Below are positions 1,864 through 9,014 of a DNA stretch of 9,124 nucleotides, in pieces. Under the pieces are notes generated by a model. The model was not told the DNA's origin. It searched no databases and worked only from the letters and a program-made list of their open reading frames with translations. This DNA comes from a bacterium (GTDB lineage Bacteria; UBP6; JAFGXH01). The stretch lies in the NCBI GenBank assembly GCA_027064085.1, contig JAMOQH010000112.1, forward strand, positions 1 through 9,124. The letters are read 5' to 3'. The translations under genes were made by a program, and so were the position numbers. Each line of letters begins with the position of its first letter. Position 1 is the stretch's first letter.

Positions 1864-2766
1864 ATGATAGTTGCAGTAGGCTCTATTGCTTATGATACAA
1901 TCAAAACTTGGATTGAGAAAAGATCTTATCTATTGGGTGGTTCCGCATCATACTTTTCTATTGCTGCTTCCAATTTTAGTAAAGTTGATATTGTTGCCGT
2001 TGTTGGTGAAGATTTTAAAAATAAAGACCTTGATTTATTTATCAATAAAAAAATTGGAATTGAAAATATAAAAAAGGAAAAAGGAAAAACTTTTCACTGG
2101 GAAGGAACTTACCCTCAAAATGGAGATGCCCAAACTCTAAAAACTGAATTAAATGTTTTTGAAAATTTTAATCCTAAAATTAACGATAATCTAAAAAATA
2201 AACCAATACTATTTTTAGGTAATATAGACCCAACTCTCCAATACAATGTTGTAGAACAAATGAATTCGCCTAAATGGGTAATATGCGATACAATGAATTA
2301 TTGGATAGAAAAGAAAAAAGATGATTTATTAAAAACCATGTCAAAAGTAGATATTTTAATAATAAATGAAACAGAAATCAAGATGCTTTCAGAAGATAAA
2401 AACTTATTAAGAGCTGTTAAAAAAATAAAAAATATGGGACCTAAAATAGTTTTAGTAAAATATGGAGCAAGAGGAGCCGCTTTATTCTATCAAGACAAAC
2501 ACTTTGTAATTCCAGCAACACCTGTTGATAAAGTAATTGACCCCACGGGTGCTGGTGATACATTTGCTGGAGGTTTTATTGGTTATTTTGCATCTGCGGT
2601 AAAAGACAATGAAGTAACTTTTGAGATATTAAAAAAAGCAACTGTTTACGGAAATATCATGGCATCTTTTACAATTGAGGGATTTGGACTTGATAATCTT
2701 AGAAAAATAGATAATAATATGATTAATGAAAGATTTAAGAGTTTTAAAGATTTAGTTAGCTTTTAA
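1864..2766 (+). CDS. PfkB/ribokinase-family carbohydrate kinase, substrate unknown
   Basis: This 300-residue protein has the usual length and motifs of the PfkB/ribokinase superfamily, which phosphorylates sugars or nucleosides with ATP in the cytoplasm. It opens with the IVAVGSIAYD strand and has the substrate-side glycine pair in LLGGSASYFS at residues 23-32. NETE at 168-171 lies in the metal/phosphate region. The second signature is DPTGAGDTFAGGF at 226-238, which carries the anion hole and the catalytic base Asp232. It matches, from memory, a subgroup in Myxococcota and several candidate phyla marked by 'GK(T/S)FxWxGxY' (here GKTFHWEGTY, 74-83) and 'CDTMNxWI' (141-147). The substrate of that subgroup is not known to me. 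The ATG follows a GGGGG run at 1855-1859. It is the first gene of a five-gene run, divergent from the GspE-N/GAF gene. Confidence 0.92.
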   Translation: MIVAVGSIAYDTIKTWIEKRSYLLGGSASYFSIAASNFSKVDIVAVVGEDFKNKDLDLFINKKIGIENIKKEKGKTFHWEGTYPQNGDAQTLKTELNVFENFNPKINDNLKNKPILFLGNIDPTLQYNVVEQMNSPKWVICDTMNYWIEKKKDDLLKTMSKVDILIINETEIKMLSEDKNLLRAVKKIKNMGPKIVLVKYGARGAALFYQDKHFVIPATPVDKVIDPTGAGDTFAGGFIGYFASAVKDNEVTFEILKKATVYGNIMASFTIEGFGLDNLRKIDNNMINERFKSFKDLVSF

Positions 2767-2787
2767 ATAAAATTTTAAATAAAATTT
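2764..2787 (+). repeat. Perfect 12-bp tandem duplication at the kinase stop codon
   Basis: TAAATAAAATTT occurs twice head to tail, at 2764-2775 and 2776-2787. The first copy begins with the stop codon of the kinase gene. A decayed third copy (ATAAATAGG) may follow and contains the ribosome binding site of the next gene. It is probably simple AT slippage in a 40-bp intergenic spacer. Confidence 0.8.
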
Positions 2788-2806
2788 ATAAATAGGAAAT
2801 ATAAGA

Positions 2807-3784
2807 ATGATTAAGCTTTTAATTTTTGTTTTTACAATTAATATTTTTGGATTATCTTCAACTATTGATAGTATTTTTAAAAAAGAAAACTCTCAGAACT
2901 CTATTAATATAGTCAAAAAAAATAAAAAAGTTAAATCATTAATTGGAACATGGATAACAGACTCCCACATAACAATTGAAATAATAAGAGAAGGAAAATA
3001 TTATATTGGGATAGTAAAATCTGACATTTATGATTCAACATCTACTTTCTTAAATGGTGAATCAATTTTAAGATTCAATAAGAATTTATTAGAAATAAAT
3101 AAAGGAAGACTAAAAATACTAAATGAAAATAAATCTCATAAAGAGTGGATAGATACAAATTTTAAAATATCTAAGGATACTATATTTGATGGTTATAATT
3201 TATATAAAAAAATTCTTGATTCAAATATTAGAATAAAAAAGAAAAGAATTAATAAAAAAAACATACAACTAAGAGTTCAAGCAACTAAACAATTAAAAAG
3301 TAGTGACTGGAAACAACGCTTAGAAGGAGTAAGTACTATTGTTGATTTAAATGATTATACAACAATACCACAGTTAACACCTCTTTTATTTGATCAAAAT
3401 GACTCAGTAAGAACAGCTACTTATTATTTATTAAAAAAATTTAATGAAGAAAATAGTATTGCTGGTTTATCACAACTTTTAAAAGATAGTAAAAAAATGT
3501 CAAATTCAAGAAAGAAAAGGATTAATAATGTATCCTTAGATGGAGTTTGGACAAATGATAATAATTCAATTCAAATATATTTAGGCACCGATAATGTTAT
3601 AACAATAACTAATAATGGTAAGCTTGAAAAGGGACTATATATTTCAGATGGTGAAGACCAATTAGCTGTACAACTAGATAATGATTCAGAGCAAATTATG
3701 CTTAGATACAAAATAAAAGGAAACATAATTTCTTTGAAGTCATCAAAATATAAAAATAAACTTTTATTAAAAAAATTAAAATAA
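2807..3784 (+). CDS. Predicted secreted protein: beta domain - HEAT-like repeats - beta domain, function unknown
   Basis: I do not recognise a named family. The 325 residues begin with MIKLLIFVFTINIFGLSSTI, a short charged-hydrophobic stretch that looks like a signal peptide or membrane anchor without a lipobox. A lysine-rich stretch is followed by LIGTWITDSHITIEIIREG (about 45-63), the beginning of a small beta-rich domain. Residues about 154-229 look like HEAT-type helical repeats, for example DWKQRLEGVSTIVDL and NDSVRTATYYLLKKF. A second beta-rich part begins LDGVWTNDNNSIQIYLG (244-260) and echoes the first 'G-x-W-x-x-(D/N)-x-x-I-x-I' pattern. A periplasmic or envelope-associated protein-interaction role is inference. 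An AGGAA site at 2794-2798 supports the start. It sits 40 bp after the kinase and 19 bp before greA, so it is probably co-transcribed. Composition is like its neighbours. Confidence 0.75.
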   Translation: MIKLLIFVFTINIFGLSSTIDSIFKKENSQNSINIVKKNKKVKSLIGTWITDSHITIEIIREGKYYIGIVKSDIYDSTSTFLNGESILRFNKNLLEINKGRLKILNENKSHKEWIDTNFKISKDTIFDGYNLYKKILDSNIRIKKKRINKKNIQLRVQATKQLKSSDWKQRLEGVSTIVDLNDYTTIPQLTPLLFDQNDSVRTATYYLLKKFNEENSIAGLSQLLKDSKKMSNSRKKRINNVSLDGVWTNDNNSIQIYLGTDNVITITNNGKLEKGLYISDGEDQLAVQLDNDSEQIMLRYKIKGNIISLKSSKYKNKLLLKKLK

Positions 3785-4283: not shown

Positions 4284-5814
4284 TGCACAAAAACTTTTAA
4301 AGCAATATTTCAATTATGATGATTTTAGAGAAAATCAAAAATCAGTAATAAAAAATGTACTAAACACACAAGAAGATAGTCTTATTATTATGCCTACAGG
4401 TGGTGGAAAATCAATTCTATATACCATACCAGCATTACTTTATAATGGCCTAACTATCATAGTATCTCCACTAATTGCTTTAATGCAAGACCAAGTATTA
4501 AACTTGAAAACAAGAAGAATAAATGCGGAATACATCTCTTCGGAAGATAATAATTTTAATGAAATTAAAAGTAAAATTAAAGAAATAAAATTATTATTTA
4601 TTTCACCAGAAAGGTTTACAAATAAAACTTTTTTTTTATGGTTAAAAACTTTAGATATAGATTTCATAGCATTAGATGAAGCCCATACTTTTACCGAATA
4701 TGGGCTAAGCTTTAGAGCAAGTTATAGATTGTTTTTTGATAAATTAAATGAATTAAAAAAAAATAAGAATATTAAATTTATGGCACTTACAGCCACTGCA
4801 TCTGAGTTTATTTATAATGATTTAACAAGTAATTATAAGTTTAAAAGAATTTTTAAATTTAATAGCTTTAGGAATAACTTAAATATTAAAATTAATTTAT
4901 TTGAAACAGAAAAAGAAAAGGATTTAGTCTTATATTCTGTACTAAATGAAAAAAACACTAGTTTAATTTATACCATGACAAGAAGAAGTGCAGAAAAAAT
5001 TTATTATAGAAGTGGTGAAAAATTTAAGAAATTAAGATATTATCATGCAAAGCTACCTTCTAACATTAAAAAAGACATATTGAAAGGCTTTATTGATAAT
5101 AAAATCAAAATTATTGCATCAACAACTGCTTTTGGTATGGGAATTGATAAAAGTGATGTTAGATTTGTTTATCATAGTGAATTACCTAACTCTATAGAAG
5201 ATTATGCTCAACAAATAGGAAGAGCAGGACGAGATGGAAAATTATCTGATGTTATTATGTATCTTTCAAAAGAAAACATAGAAATAAGAAAAAATATTAT
5301 ATATAATAATAAAGAAAATCTTGAAATTGAGTTAAAAAAGTTAAAAAATGGTAAAATTACAGAAAATGAAAGTATTAAAAATATTTTTTTAATTAGAAAT
5401 TTAATAACTCCAATAGAATATCCTATTTTAGAGATAAATATACTTAGTGATTTAACATCATACCCATTTTTAATTAATTTATTAAAATTACTTAAAAATG
5501 AAAATAATATCAAAATAATATCTAAAAAACTAGATGTAGAACCATGGATAATAGAAGACAGCTTAAATTATCTTCAAAATAGAGGAAATATAGAGTATAA
5601 AATCAAAAAATACACTATAAATACATTTAACTATGAGGAAGAATTAAAATATTTGTACAAAGATGATGATATTAAAATTAAGAAATTTGAAGATATGATA
5701 GATTTTATAAATACTAAAGAGTGTAGGCATAAATGGCTAGCAAACTATTTTAATAATGAAATAGAAGATTGTAAAACCATTTGTGATAACTGCAGGAGAA
5801 AAAATGAAATATAA
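4264..5814 (+). CDS. RecQ-family ATP-dependent DNA helicase, short (RecS-like) form
   Basis: This superfamily 2 helicase (516 residues) should unwind DNA 3' to 5' in repair and recombination. Visible motifs are the Q-like FNYDDFRENQ (16-25), Walker A TGGGKS (45-50), VSPLIALMQDQV (67-78), DEAH (138-141), LTATAS (175-180), the helicase C motif FGMGIDKSDVRFVYH (290-304) and QIGRAGRDG (317-325). Four cysteines (487, 503, 507, 510) form the RecQ zinc-binding signature, but at the extreme C-terminus. A winged-helix-like segment (about 405-445) precedes the zinc site, and there is no HRDC domain. Canonical E. coli RecQ is about 610 residues with order helicase, zinc, winged helix, HRDC. The loop after DEAH is divergent (see findings). 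The first in-frame ATG lies inside greA and has no clear Shine-Dalgarno, so coupling to greA is likely. The 3' end overlaps maf by 11 bp. Confidence 0.93.
   Translation: MKLNIFNAQKLLKQYFNYDDFRENQKSVIKNVLNTQEDSLIIMPTGGGKSILYTIPALLYNGLTIIVSPLIALMQDQVLNLKTRRINAEYISSEDNNFNEIKSKIKEIKLLFISPERFTNKTFFLWLKTLDIDFIALDEAHTFTEYGLSFRASYRLFFDKLNELKKNKNIKFMALTATASEFIYNDLTSNYKFKRIFKFNSFRNNLNIKINLFETEKEKDLVLYSVLNEKNTSLIYTMTRRSAEKIYYRSGEKFKKLRYYHAKLPSNIKKDILKGFIDNKIKIIASTTAFGMGIDKSDVRFVYHSELPNSIEDYAQQIGRAGRDGKLSDVIMYLSKENIEIRKNIIYNNKENLEIELKKLKNGKITENESIKNIFLIRNLITPIEYPILEINILSDLTSYPFLINLLKLLKNENNIKIISKKLDVEPWIIEDSLNYLQNRGNIEYKIKKYTINTFNYEEELKYLYKDDDIKIKKFEDMIDFINTKECRHKWLANYFNNEIEDCKTICDNCRRKNEI
5794..5798 (+). 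promoter_or_regulatory. Ribosome binding site fixing the maf start
   Basis: AGGAG sits five bases before the ATG at 5804, inside the end of the recQ-like gene. A GTG at 5783 in the same frame would add seven residues (MITAGEK), but it has no such site and the added residues are not part of the Maf family N-terminus, so 5804 is the better start. Confidence 0.8.
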
Positions 5815-6415
5815 TTATAAAATAAATTTAGCATCAGAATCTCAAAGAAGGATAGATTTTTTAACACAATTAAAACTAGAATTTAATCATTTTTCAGTAA
5901 ATATAGATGAAACTCAATTAGAAAATGAAATCCCATTAAATTACTTAAAACGAATAGTAAATAACAAAATGTTGGGTGCAATTACAATATTGGGTGAGAA
6001 AGGGCGAGTCAACGGCTCGCCCTTACCCAATATTGTAATTGTTGCAGATACAATAGTAGTTTTAGGTAATACTATTTTACAGAAGCCTAAAAATAAAGAA
6101 GAAGCTAAAGAATTTTTGACTATGTTATCAAATAGATGGCATAATGTAATTACAGGATACAGTATTTCAGATGGAAAAGAGCTAAAATTATATAAATTTG
6201 TGACTACAGAAGTACTCTTTAAGAAGTTAACAGCAAAAGAAATAGATTTTTATCTATCAGATAATGAATATATGGGTAAAGCAGGAGCTTATGCAATTCA
6301 AGGTTTAGGAGCTTTTATGATTAAAAAATTCGTTGGGTCTTATTCTAATGTTGTTGGGCTTCCTATTATGGAACTATTTTCTGATTTACAAAAATTTAAA
6401 ATTATTGAACTATAA
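5804..6415 (+). CDS. maf: Maf-family nucleoside triphosphate pyrophosphatase with an in-frame palindromic insertion
   Basis: Maf proteins hydrolyse nucleoside triphosphates such as dTTP/UTP or modified nucleotides to monophosphate and pyrophosphate, a cytoplasmic pool-cleaning and division-linked role. The 203-residue protein from ATG 5804 has the full signature set: NLASESQRRIDFL (8-20), NIDET (33-37), VADTIVVL with the catalytic-region aspartate (80-87), KP after the next strand, HNVITGYSI, MGKAGAYAIQGLGAF and GSYSNVVGLPI. Residues about 59-80 are unusual: they are encoded by a 63-nt inverted repeat and read TILGEKGRVNGSPLPNIV in the middle. From the conserved Lys55 to the AD of ADTIV there are 25 residues, against about 15-16 in B. 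subtilis Maf and E. coli YhdE as I recall them. The motifs on both sides are intact, so the enzyme may still work. The gene overlaps recQ by 11 bp and the convergent amidohydrolase by 14 bp. Confidence 0.94.
   Translation: MKYNYKINLASESQRRIDFLTQLKLEFNHFSVNIDETQLENEIPLNYLKRIVNNKMLGAITILGEKGRVNGSPLPNIVIVADTIVVLGNTILQKPKNKEEAKEFLTMLSNRWHNVITGYSISDGKELKLYKFVTTEVLFKKLTAKEIDFYLSDNEYMGKAGAYAIQGLGAFMIKKFVGSYSNVVGLPIMELFSDLQKFKIIEL
5979..6041. repeat. 63-nt near-perfect inverted repeat with GC-rich core embedded in maf
   Basis: The outer arms are perfect 17-bp complements: CAATTACAATATTGGGT (5979-5995) and its complement at 6025-6041. A four-base GAGA bulge (5996-5999) is present on the left only. 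The inner stem pairs AAGGGCGAGTC (6000-6010) with GGCTCGCCCTT (6014-6024), 11 pairs with one T-G wobble, around a three-base AAC loop. The length equals 21 codons and the frame stays open, so the element is translated as part of Maf. The GC-rich core stands out sharply in this AT-rich window. It is not followed by a T run on the plus strand, so it does not look like a normal terminator. No second copy is present in the window. Confidence 0.95.
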
Positions 6416-7619: not shown

Positions 7620-9014
7620 TTATTTATATATAGAACCAAATGAATTCAATAATTGAGACGCTAACTCATACTTTTTATTATTTTCATCTTCCTTTTCTTT
7701 TTTGTTTAACCATCTCATTTTTGAATTTATTGTTTTAGTAATATTTTTATTTTTAATCTCTTCTTGTTCAGGATGTTTTAAATTCATCATTCTTAATTTA
7801 ACACCTTTAGATGTTTTATACAAAAAATAAATAGTTCCTTCATTATCAATTTCAACAACAACACCAATGCTGGTTAATTTATCATTAAACTCTTTATCTT
7901 TATCTTTATCAAATGTATTGTCAAAAAACACTATATCGCCAACTTTAGGGTTTTCTTTATACAATTTACCATTAGTATTTACATAATTATAAATCATTTC
8001 TGTAGTTGATAGCCATTTTCCACTATCATCTTTTTTATTCTCTACATCAGTTAAATCAACTCTTTTATTTAAAAACACCATTTTTACAAACCCAGAAGCA
8101 TATTTATTCCACTTTTTACTTTCAGGCATATTTTTATCTTCAAAAGTTTTTGCAAACTTAGCAATATTTTCTCTTTCAGCTTCAGGCAAAGTAATATTAT
8201 ATGCTAAATCAGATAATTTATGTTTAGATAGTATTGAACCAAATGAATTTACTAATTGTGATGACAAAGTAGGAAACTTATCACTACTTCCATTTTTCTT
8301 TTCTTTTTTAGTTAACCATCTCATTTGAGAATTAATTGTTTTAGTAATATTTTTATTTTTAATATTTTTTTGTTCAGGATGTTTAAAGTTTATCATTTTT
8401 AACTTAACACCTTTAGATGTATTATATAAAAAATATATAGTACCCTCTTTATCAGTATCTATTACAAGACCAATACTAGTTAATTTATCATTAAAAACTT
8501 CATCTTTATCTGCATCGTAGGTATTATCAAAAAATACTATATCACCAGGTTTAGGATTATTACCTTTAAGTATTTCACCATTTTTTTCTATATAATTATA
8601 AATCATTTGTGTAGTTGTAAGCCATTTTCCATTATCATCTTTTTTCTTATCTACATCAGTTAAATTTACAGCAAATTTTAAATAAACCATTTTTATAAAA
8701 CCAGAAGCATACTTATTCCACTTATTACTTTTAGGAATCTTTTTATCTTCAAAAGATTTTGCAAAATCAACTATCTTTTTTCTATCATCAGAAATTGAAA
8801 CAACAGTACCCTCTTTAGGGGCAACAACTTTATTTTTATCTATTTTAAGTTTATCTTTATCATGAACAATCTTTTCAGTTTTAGTTTCTTTGTTTTCAAA
8901 CTTTTTTTCTGTTTTCTTCTCAGTTTTTTTTACTTTATCACTAGTTGTTTTTTTAGCCTTTGAACATGAAAATGCAAAAAACACTAAAATCATTAAAAGA
9001 ATAACCTTTCTCAT
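7620..9014 (-). CDS. Lipoprotein with two tandem, apparently inactive NlpC/P60 (CHAP)-like domains
   Basis: The 464-residue protein begins MRKVILLMILVFFAFSCSK: a lipoprotein signal with likely acylated Cys17 (the lipobox AFSC is slightly atypical). A Lys/Glu/Thr-rich tether (18-65) follows, then two homologous domains, about 78-262 and 283-463. Each has the papain-like NlpC/P60 framework: KWNKYASGF(I/V)KMV, then GDIVFFDNT(Y/F)D, LTSIG(L/V)V and GTIYFLY. In active relatives the first motif reads (D/Y)CSGF and the later one HVG. Here the cysteine is Ala103 and Ala306, and the histidine is Ser180 and Ser382. Peptidoglycan cleavage by the usual mechanism is therefore unlikely; a binding, structural or regulatory envelope role is inferred. 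GAGGT (9025-9021) lies six bases before the ATG. The first gene of a probable two-gene operon with the amidohydrolase. Confidence 0.85.
   Translation of the reverse strand: MRKVILLMILVFFAFSCSKAKKTTSDKVKKTEKKTEKKFENKETKTEKIVHDKDKLKIDKNKVVAPKEGTVVSISDDRKKIVDFAKSFEDKKIPKSNKWNKYASGFIKMVYLKFAVNLTDVDKKKDDNGKWLTTTQMIYNYIEKNGEILKGNNPKPGDIVFFDNTYDADKDEVFNDKLTSIGLVIDTDKEGTIYFLYNTSKGVKLKMINFKHPEQKNIKNKNITKTINSQMRWLTKKEKKNGSSDKFPTLSSQLVNSFGSILSKHKLSDLAYNITLPEAERENIAKFAKTFEDKNMPESKKWNKYASGFVKMVFLNKRVDLTDVENKKDDSGKWLSTTEMIYNYVNTNGKLYKENPKVGDIVFFDNTFDKDKDKEFNDKLTSIGVVVEIDNEGTIYFLYKTSKGVKLRMMNLKHPEQEEIKNKNITKTINSKMRWLNKKEKEDENNKKYELASQLLNSFGSIYK
7626..8783 (-). repeat. Internal gene duplication: two about 540-555-bp domain copies
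   Basis: Codons 78-262 (8783-8229) and 283-463 (8168-7626) encode clearly homologous domains offset by about 203 residues. Long blocks are conserved, for example TSKGVKL(K/R)M, KHPEQ, IKNKNITKTINS, MRWL and NSFGSI. Synonymous and conservative differences are frequent, so this is an older duplication than the 54-bp array at the left edge. The copies are joined by a linker of about 20 residues (263-282). Confidence 0.9.

Follow-up and report, generated by a model that had tools for sequence, protein, structure and literature searches.

An in-frame palindrome in a bacterial maf gene, probably a REP-type element with local enlargement

The maf gene on a 9,124-nucleotide contig (C112, the whole of which is referred to here as the window) of a 3.65-Mb bacterial genome in 195 contigs carries, within its open reading frame, a nested palindrome that is composite: a GC-rich core belonging to a dispersed family is enclosed by outer arms that are unique to this locus. 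The structure is probably a REP-type element that sits in a gene and was then enlarged locally; such insertion is an event of a known type and is frequent in this lineage. We are confident, if not certain, that the best overall explanation is a REP-type core that entered maf, arms that were enlarged afterwards and an insert that is neutral to its host. A literature search returned no paper on such an element in such a lineage.

The outer arms are perfect 17-bp inverted repeats (CAATTACAATATTGGGT and ACCCAATATTGTAATTG), as stated in the original prediction, which had been made from the letters alone; the total length of 63 bp, equivalent to 21 codons, the intact maf frame and the contrast between a GC-rich core (70% GC) and its surroundings (25% GC for the window) were also described correctly. 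The inner stem (AAGGGCGAGTC/GGCTCGCCCTT, positions 6000 to 6010 and 6014 to 6024) does close on the AAC loop given there, but its 11 pairs comprise 10 Watson-Crick pairs and one T.G wobble, so the stem is not perfect throughout. The palindrome is far above what chance would produce in a window of 25% GC: the longest perfect inverted-repeat arm measured 17 bp, against at most 13 bp when the window was Markov shuffled 25 times, and its predicted RNA fold reached -43 kcal/mol (z = -7.9).

Table 1. Features of the maf palindrome (positions in the window) and related cores
Feature	Position	Strand	Remark
maf, Maf nucleotide pyrophosphatase, 203 aa	5804..6415 (5804-6412 plus stop)	plus	host of the palindrome, frame intact
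Whole nested palindrome, 63 bp	5979..6041		encodes Maf residues 59-80
Left outer arm	5979..5995	plus	probably an inverted copy of the right arm; outside the dispersed repeat
Right outer arm	6025..6041	plus	native Maf sequence, NIVIV before ADT
Putative REP core GGGCGAGCCGTTGACTCGCCC	6002..6022	minus	part of the dispersed family
Foot tetranucleotide GTAA of the maf copy	6023..6026	minus	other copies carry GTAG or, in some cases, GTAC
Direct repeat TTGGGTG	5972-5978 and 5990-5996 (span 5972..5996)	plus	18 bp (6 codons) apart
Sibling core GGGCGAGGTGGTGACTCGCCC			within the RAYT gene
Second sibling core GGGCGAGGCGGTGACTCGCCC			brackets the RAYT in L086
Core form GTAGGGACGAGTCGGTGACTCGTCC			putative RAYT substrate, as is the maf GTAA version

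That the palindrome is a dispersed element had been proposed at the outset, and for the core this held: RAGNNNNTGACTYRYCC matched 35 times in the genome, in and between genes, versus once for the reversed control. Hairpins of the form GGGC..GCCC numbered 60 (8 for the reversed pattern), and the narrower form GGGCGA..TCGCCC was found 7 times (reversed controls, 0), with further GGGCGAG..CTCGCCC hairpins elsewhere in the genome. On the minus strand, the maf core has the form GTAA-GGGCGAG-CCGT-TGACTCGCCC, which aligns with the copies on contigs C185 (GTAG-GGGCGAG-GTGG-TGACTCGCCC) and C189 (GTAC-GGGCGAG-GCGG-TGACTCGCCC); a GTAG foot is present in the siblings on C185, C101, C122, C133 and C138, and GTAA is common among the copies here. 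Since RAGNNNNTGACTYRYCC had no match in either of the two sister-genus genomes, the expansion is lineage specific within the genomes compared; in any other genome searched, the number of matches was at most three. Additionally, five loci (L058, L064, L066, L076 and L077) contain a composite repeat that is built around GGGC hairpins and flanked by sequences such as TTGAAAATCCRTGTAAAAC and GGTTGAAACGGCC; at least some of its copies appear to be intergenic.

What did not hold was the 63-bp unit, for a search of the genome with the whole palindrome and its flanks found only the palindrome itself. Perfect symmetry and an exact length of 63 bp had made it attractive to regard the entire unit, arms included, as the mobile element; given that neither arm has a second copy in the genome, that sibling copies have other flanks and that the right arm encodes conserved Maf sequence, we find this scarcely credible. 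Conversely, the whole palindrome might have arisen within maf by hairpin-templated mutation, with its likeness to the dispersed hairpins reflecting chance or convergence, an account that would suit the uniqueness of the outer arms and the known capacity of template switching to homogenize inverted repeats in coding DNA (PMC8604942). However, the core conforms to the pattern of a family for which the reversed control has a single match in the genome, and it departs sharply from the window in GC content, which makes a purely local origin very unlikely.

While the core is thus best regarded as a family member, the outer arms point to a second, local event. The right arm encodes NIVIV, which aligns to the Maf strand preceding ADT, and the left arm encodes AITILG, which is not conserved in Mafs; deletion of 18 bp, the spacing of the TTGGGTG repeats, leaves a shorter, in-frame stem (TTGGGT/ACCCAA) around the core. 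The left arm is probably an inverted local copy of the maf flank, generated by templated duplication after insertion of the core, and the TTGGGTG repeat is possibly the footprint of that duplication; both the direction and the order of these steps are what we infer from the arrangement of the sequence. Mechanistically, the hairpin in the nascent strand could have primed a template switch that copied the maf flank in inverted orientation, leaving behind the direct repeat, six additional codons and the long outer arms, and the pattern inclines us, somewhat, toward such an origin. Complementary, host-specific flanks of at least 8 bp were found at 4 of 21 family loci (maf, L315, L326 and L327), where 0.1 would be expected from swapped flanks when a larger offset is allowed (a small offset misses the maf arms), and the extended flanks of these four loci differ between hosts.

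The copies of the family, most of which are inside genes, amounted, once arrays were merged, to 23 places by our own count, and 16 of the 22 examined were in phase 0, giving [RK]DE[SA][VLM]T[RHY]P or a peptide close to it. According to Pfam, their hosts include FtsK, CheA, TilS, an AraC-type protein, a TonB-like protein, protein kinases, a TPR protein, FliK and an RDD protein, and a RAYT transposase open reading frame (ORF) is also among the genes carrying the core. The family therefore does what had been supposed of the maf palindrome, namely, enter genes of an AT-rich lineage in frame, where it would be translated, but its hallmark is not the KGRVNGSPLPN-like peptide that had been put forward: the actual family peptide is [RK]DE[SA]VT[RH]P, because most copies are oriented opposite to the one in maf, which reads GRVNGSP. 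In forward orientation, the GTAG/GTAA-tagged consensus has stops in two frames and none in the third, which partly accounts for the shared reading frame; all three reverse frames are open and yet are used more rarely, which suggests that insertion is biased in orientation or that the peptide is under selection. Both sister-genus orthologues of TilS lack the insert around TDESMTRPTKAMT, and PurM contains a GTAG-tagged hairpin as well as a second, much longer repeat-rich insert, neither of which is found in sister-genus PurM. At the purM locus (L226, on C101), the GTAG-tagged hairpin is accompanied by three GTGAGTCAAGGCAATGCCTTGACTGTAC units and by a GTAGAGACGAC..CGTCTCT hairpin that has tandem repeats, all of them in frame, and a match to a repeat peptide similar to that of PurM was seen on C8. 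At L273 (C111, positions 2184 to 3725) and L320 (C105), several ORFs, one of them for an NlpC/P60 protein, contain long arrays of tandem units (KDKSLAYPPRKQ, DKSLTHPVDSK) that derive from the element.

Genome stretches sampled to a total of about 740 kb held GTAN-tagged hairpins at 22 places, compared to none in shuffled sequence. The notion that tagged hairpins favor genes was unsupported, as 11 of the 22 places fell in ORFs of at least 120 amino acids, which make up 91% of the sample; that genes are underhit overall is expected if most insertions are removed. Nevertheless, the share of hairpins in genes is high relative to REPs, most of which are reported to be intergenic (PMC3733652).

As for how the core spreads, two RAYT-like genes were identified. 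The ORF on C185 matches the REP-associated tyrosine transposase family NF047646 (E = 4.7e-19, 68.7 bits); the core and a tandem repeat break into this ORF without loss of frame. The other gene, on C182 (77.4 bits), has no such interruption, and both scores are slightly under the NCBIfam cut-off of 80 but over the Pfam Y1_Tnp cut-off. The tagged core was also present in at least 119 stretches of named genomes, mostly Chloroflexota metagenome-assembled genomes (MAGs) among the matches listed. In one of these, a Chloroflexi MAG (L086) and hence a member of another phylum, GTAGGGGCGAGGCGGTGACTCGCCC and its reverse complement flank a complete RAYT head to head, the bracketing core being identical to the C189 copy of this genome, and a RAYT near a core copy was seen at only 2 of the 119 foreign loci fetched. 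RAYTs bind and cleave single-stranded REPs, aided by GTAG (PMC8266576), and on the basis of this published activity and the RAYT genes found, mobilization of the core by a RAYT in this genome is a well-founded inference. Specifically, a RAYT (an IS200/IS605-like HUH tyrosine transposase) would have carried the core (about 21 to 27 bp, positions 6002 to 6026), a presumed copy of the lineage's REP-type palindromic mobile element, into maf as single-stranded DNA. The GTAA foot of the maf copy sits uneasily with the S. maltophilia enzyme, which no longer cleaved once either of the final two positions of GTAG was altered (PMC8266576), although GTAA is frequent here; the reversed orientation of the maf copy relative to most siblings also counts against this account. 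Alternatively, the REP family might be real but have been spread by slippage, gene conversion or a lost transposase rather than by the RAYTs of this genome. Many copies do lie in tandem arrays within genes, which replication slippage can produce, and the single core-carrying RAYT here is itself interrupted by the core and tandem repeats; however, dispersed single copies in unrelated genes require some form of transposition, and with the second, uninterrupted RAYT and the sibling core bracketing a RAYT in L086 also speaking against it, we deem this unlikely.

Turning to the host protein, the palindrome-bearing Maf matches its profiles well (Pfam PF02545, E = 2.9e-47; TIGR00172, 143.5 bits with a cut-off of 117.15) and keeps all residues that are invariant among 13 Mafs. 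Its segment from K55 to ADT is 25 amino acids long, compared with 14 to 17 in nearly all other relatives and 20 in one, and exceeds that of Escherichia coli YhdE by 9, in line with the lengthening of about nine residues originally noted. Alignment to the two closest relatives, both from the sister genus, gave a mixed answer: the palindrome is absent there, yet the same segment spans 27 and 73 amino acids. Because this loop tolerates length in the Maf family, extra length alone is no evidence of insertion, and because the sister-genus Mafs are long-looped and palindrome-free, a clean absence is limited to TilS and PurM. The 73-amino-acid segment (L027, genome G002), at the same loop, is rich in N, K, E and D.

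In an AlphaFold2 model built from five sequences, four of them Mafs from viral contigs, and hence from a shallow alignment (mean pLDDT, 81; pTM, 0.79; mean pLDDT of residues 61 to 70, 66), a helix (44 to 65) is followed by a loop (66 to 75) and a strand (76 to 87); a single-sequence prediction (mean pLDDT, 33) was set aside. The core encodes approximately residues 66 to 74, so its peptide falls in the predicted loop between the helix and the strand that precedes ADT; the original prediction had likewise placed it in a loop. The insertion would have been retained because its length, or later small indels, preserved the frame and its peptide lodged in a length-tolerant loop; this same tolerance favors neutrality, and the insert is probably neutral for Maf, with a regulatory role superfluous. 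The very stable predicted hairpin could be taken to mean that it was kept for regulation of the maf mRNA, through attenuation, processing or translational pausing, but the lack of a T-run after it (the 3' flank is TTACCCAATATT) rules out an intrinsic terminator, many unrelated genes contain the same hairpin, and sister-genus maf genes lack it; we give such a function little credence.

Among known systems, the closest is the GTAG-type REP with its RAYT (TnpA-REP) (PMC3733652, PMC2817692, PMC8266576), with which the element shares a short perfect hairpin, a GTAR foot, dispersed copies, a RAYT in the genome, a REPtron-like arrangement elsewhere and in-frame copies inside genes. The core (21 to 27 bp, with a stem of 7 to 11 bp) lies within the limits described for GTAG-type hairpins (20 to 40 bp, with a stem of 5 to 13 bp and a loop of 2 to 20 bp [PMC3733652]), is dispersed and multicopy by the counts against reversed patterns given above and is associated with RAYTs on C185 and in L086. 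Differences are that the maf copy has GTAA, that many copies here are genic, in one frame and tandemly amplified whereas REPs are mostly intergenic and that some have host-specific extended arms. Since the maf copy lacks an exact GTAG, membership is claimed for the hairpin family, with the maf copy as a variant. The Rickettsia palindromic elements (Ogata et al. 2000; reviewed in PMC2229807), to which the palindrome was first likened, share in-frame, tolerated palindromes in conserved genes (here, maf, purM, tilS, ftsK and cheA) of an AT-rich host, and in this respect the comparison stands; however, they measure 105 to 146 bp (PMC2229807), as opposed to the 21- to 27-bp core, the RAYT association sets the present element apart, and the small repeats of R. 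conorii are tagged with CGTC rather than GTAG (PMC3733652). Similarly, inverted repeats homogenized by template switching (PMC8604942, PMC8794818) resemble the arms in that one is copied, inverted, from the other, but here the starter hairpin would be an inserted mobile element, and the event is deduced from the pattern and not from an ancestral sequence.

These findings suggest that REPs have inserted in frame in a further AT-rich lineage on a scale resembling that seen in Rickettsia, with RAYT as the likely enzyme class. More tentatively, and with rather less conviction, we speculate that in this genus a REP-like element is a recurrent source of protein sequence, entering mostly in one orientation with a single open frame, expanding in tandem into hydrophilic linkers of core proteins and growing palindromic arms, specific to each host, through template switching driven by its hairpin. 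The family offers a natural test of strand-biased entry of a RAYT element into genes and of an inserted hairpin going on to reshape its own flanks, and the extra peptides in Maf, TilS, PurM, CheA and FtsK are targets for studies of expression and activity. Elsewhere in the window, positions 1 to 398 are taken up by a 54-bp unit (EIPESTPEEDTTEGSID) repeated in tandem and in frame (7.4 copies) within a minus-strand ORF (3 to 1664) cut by the contig end, and a second minus-strand ORF (7620 to 9014) has a lipoprotein-like signal start and two similar repeats of about 200 amino acids.
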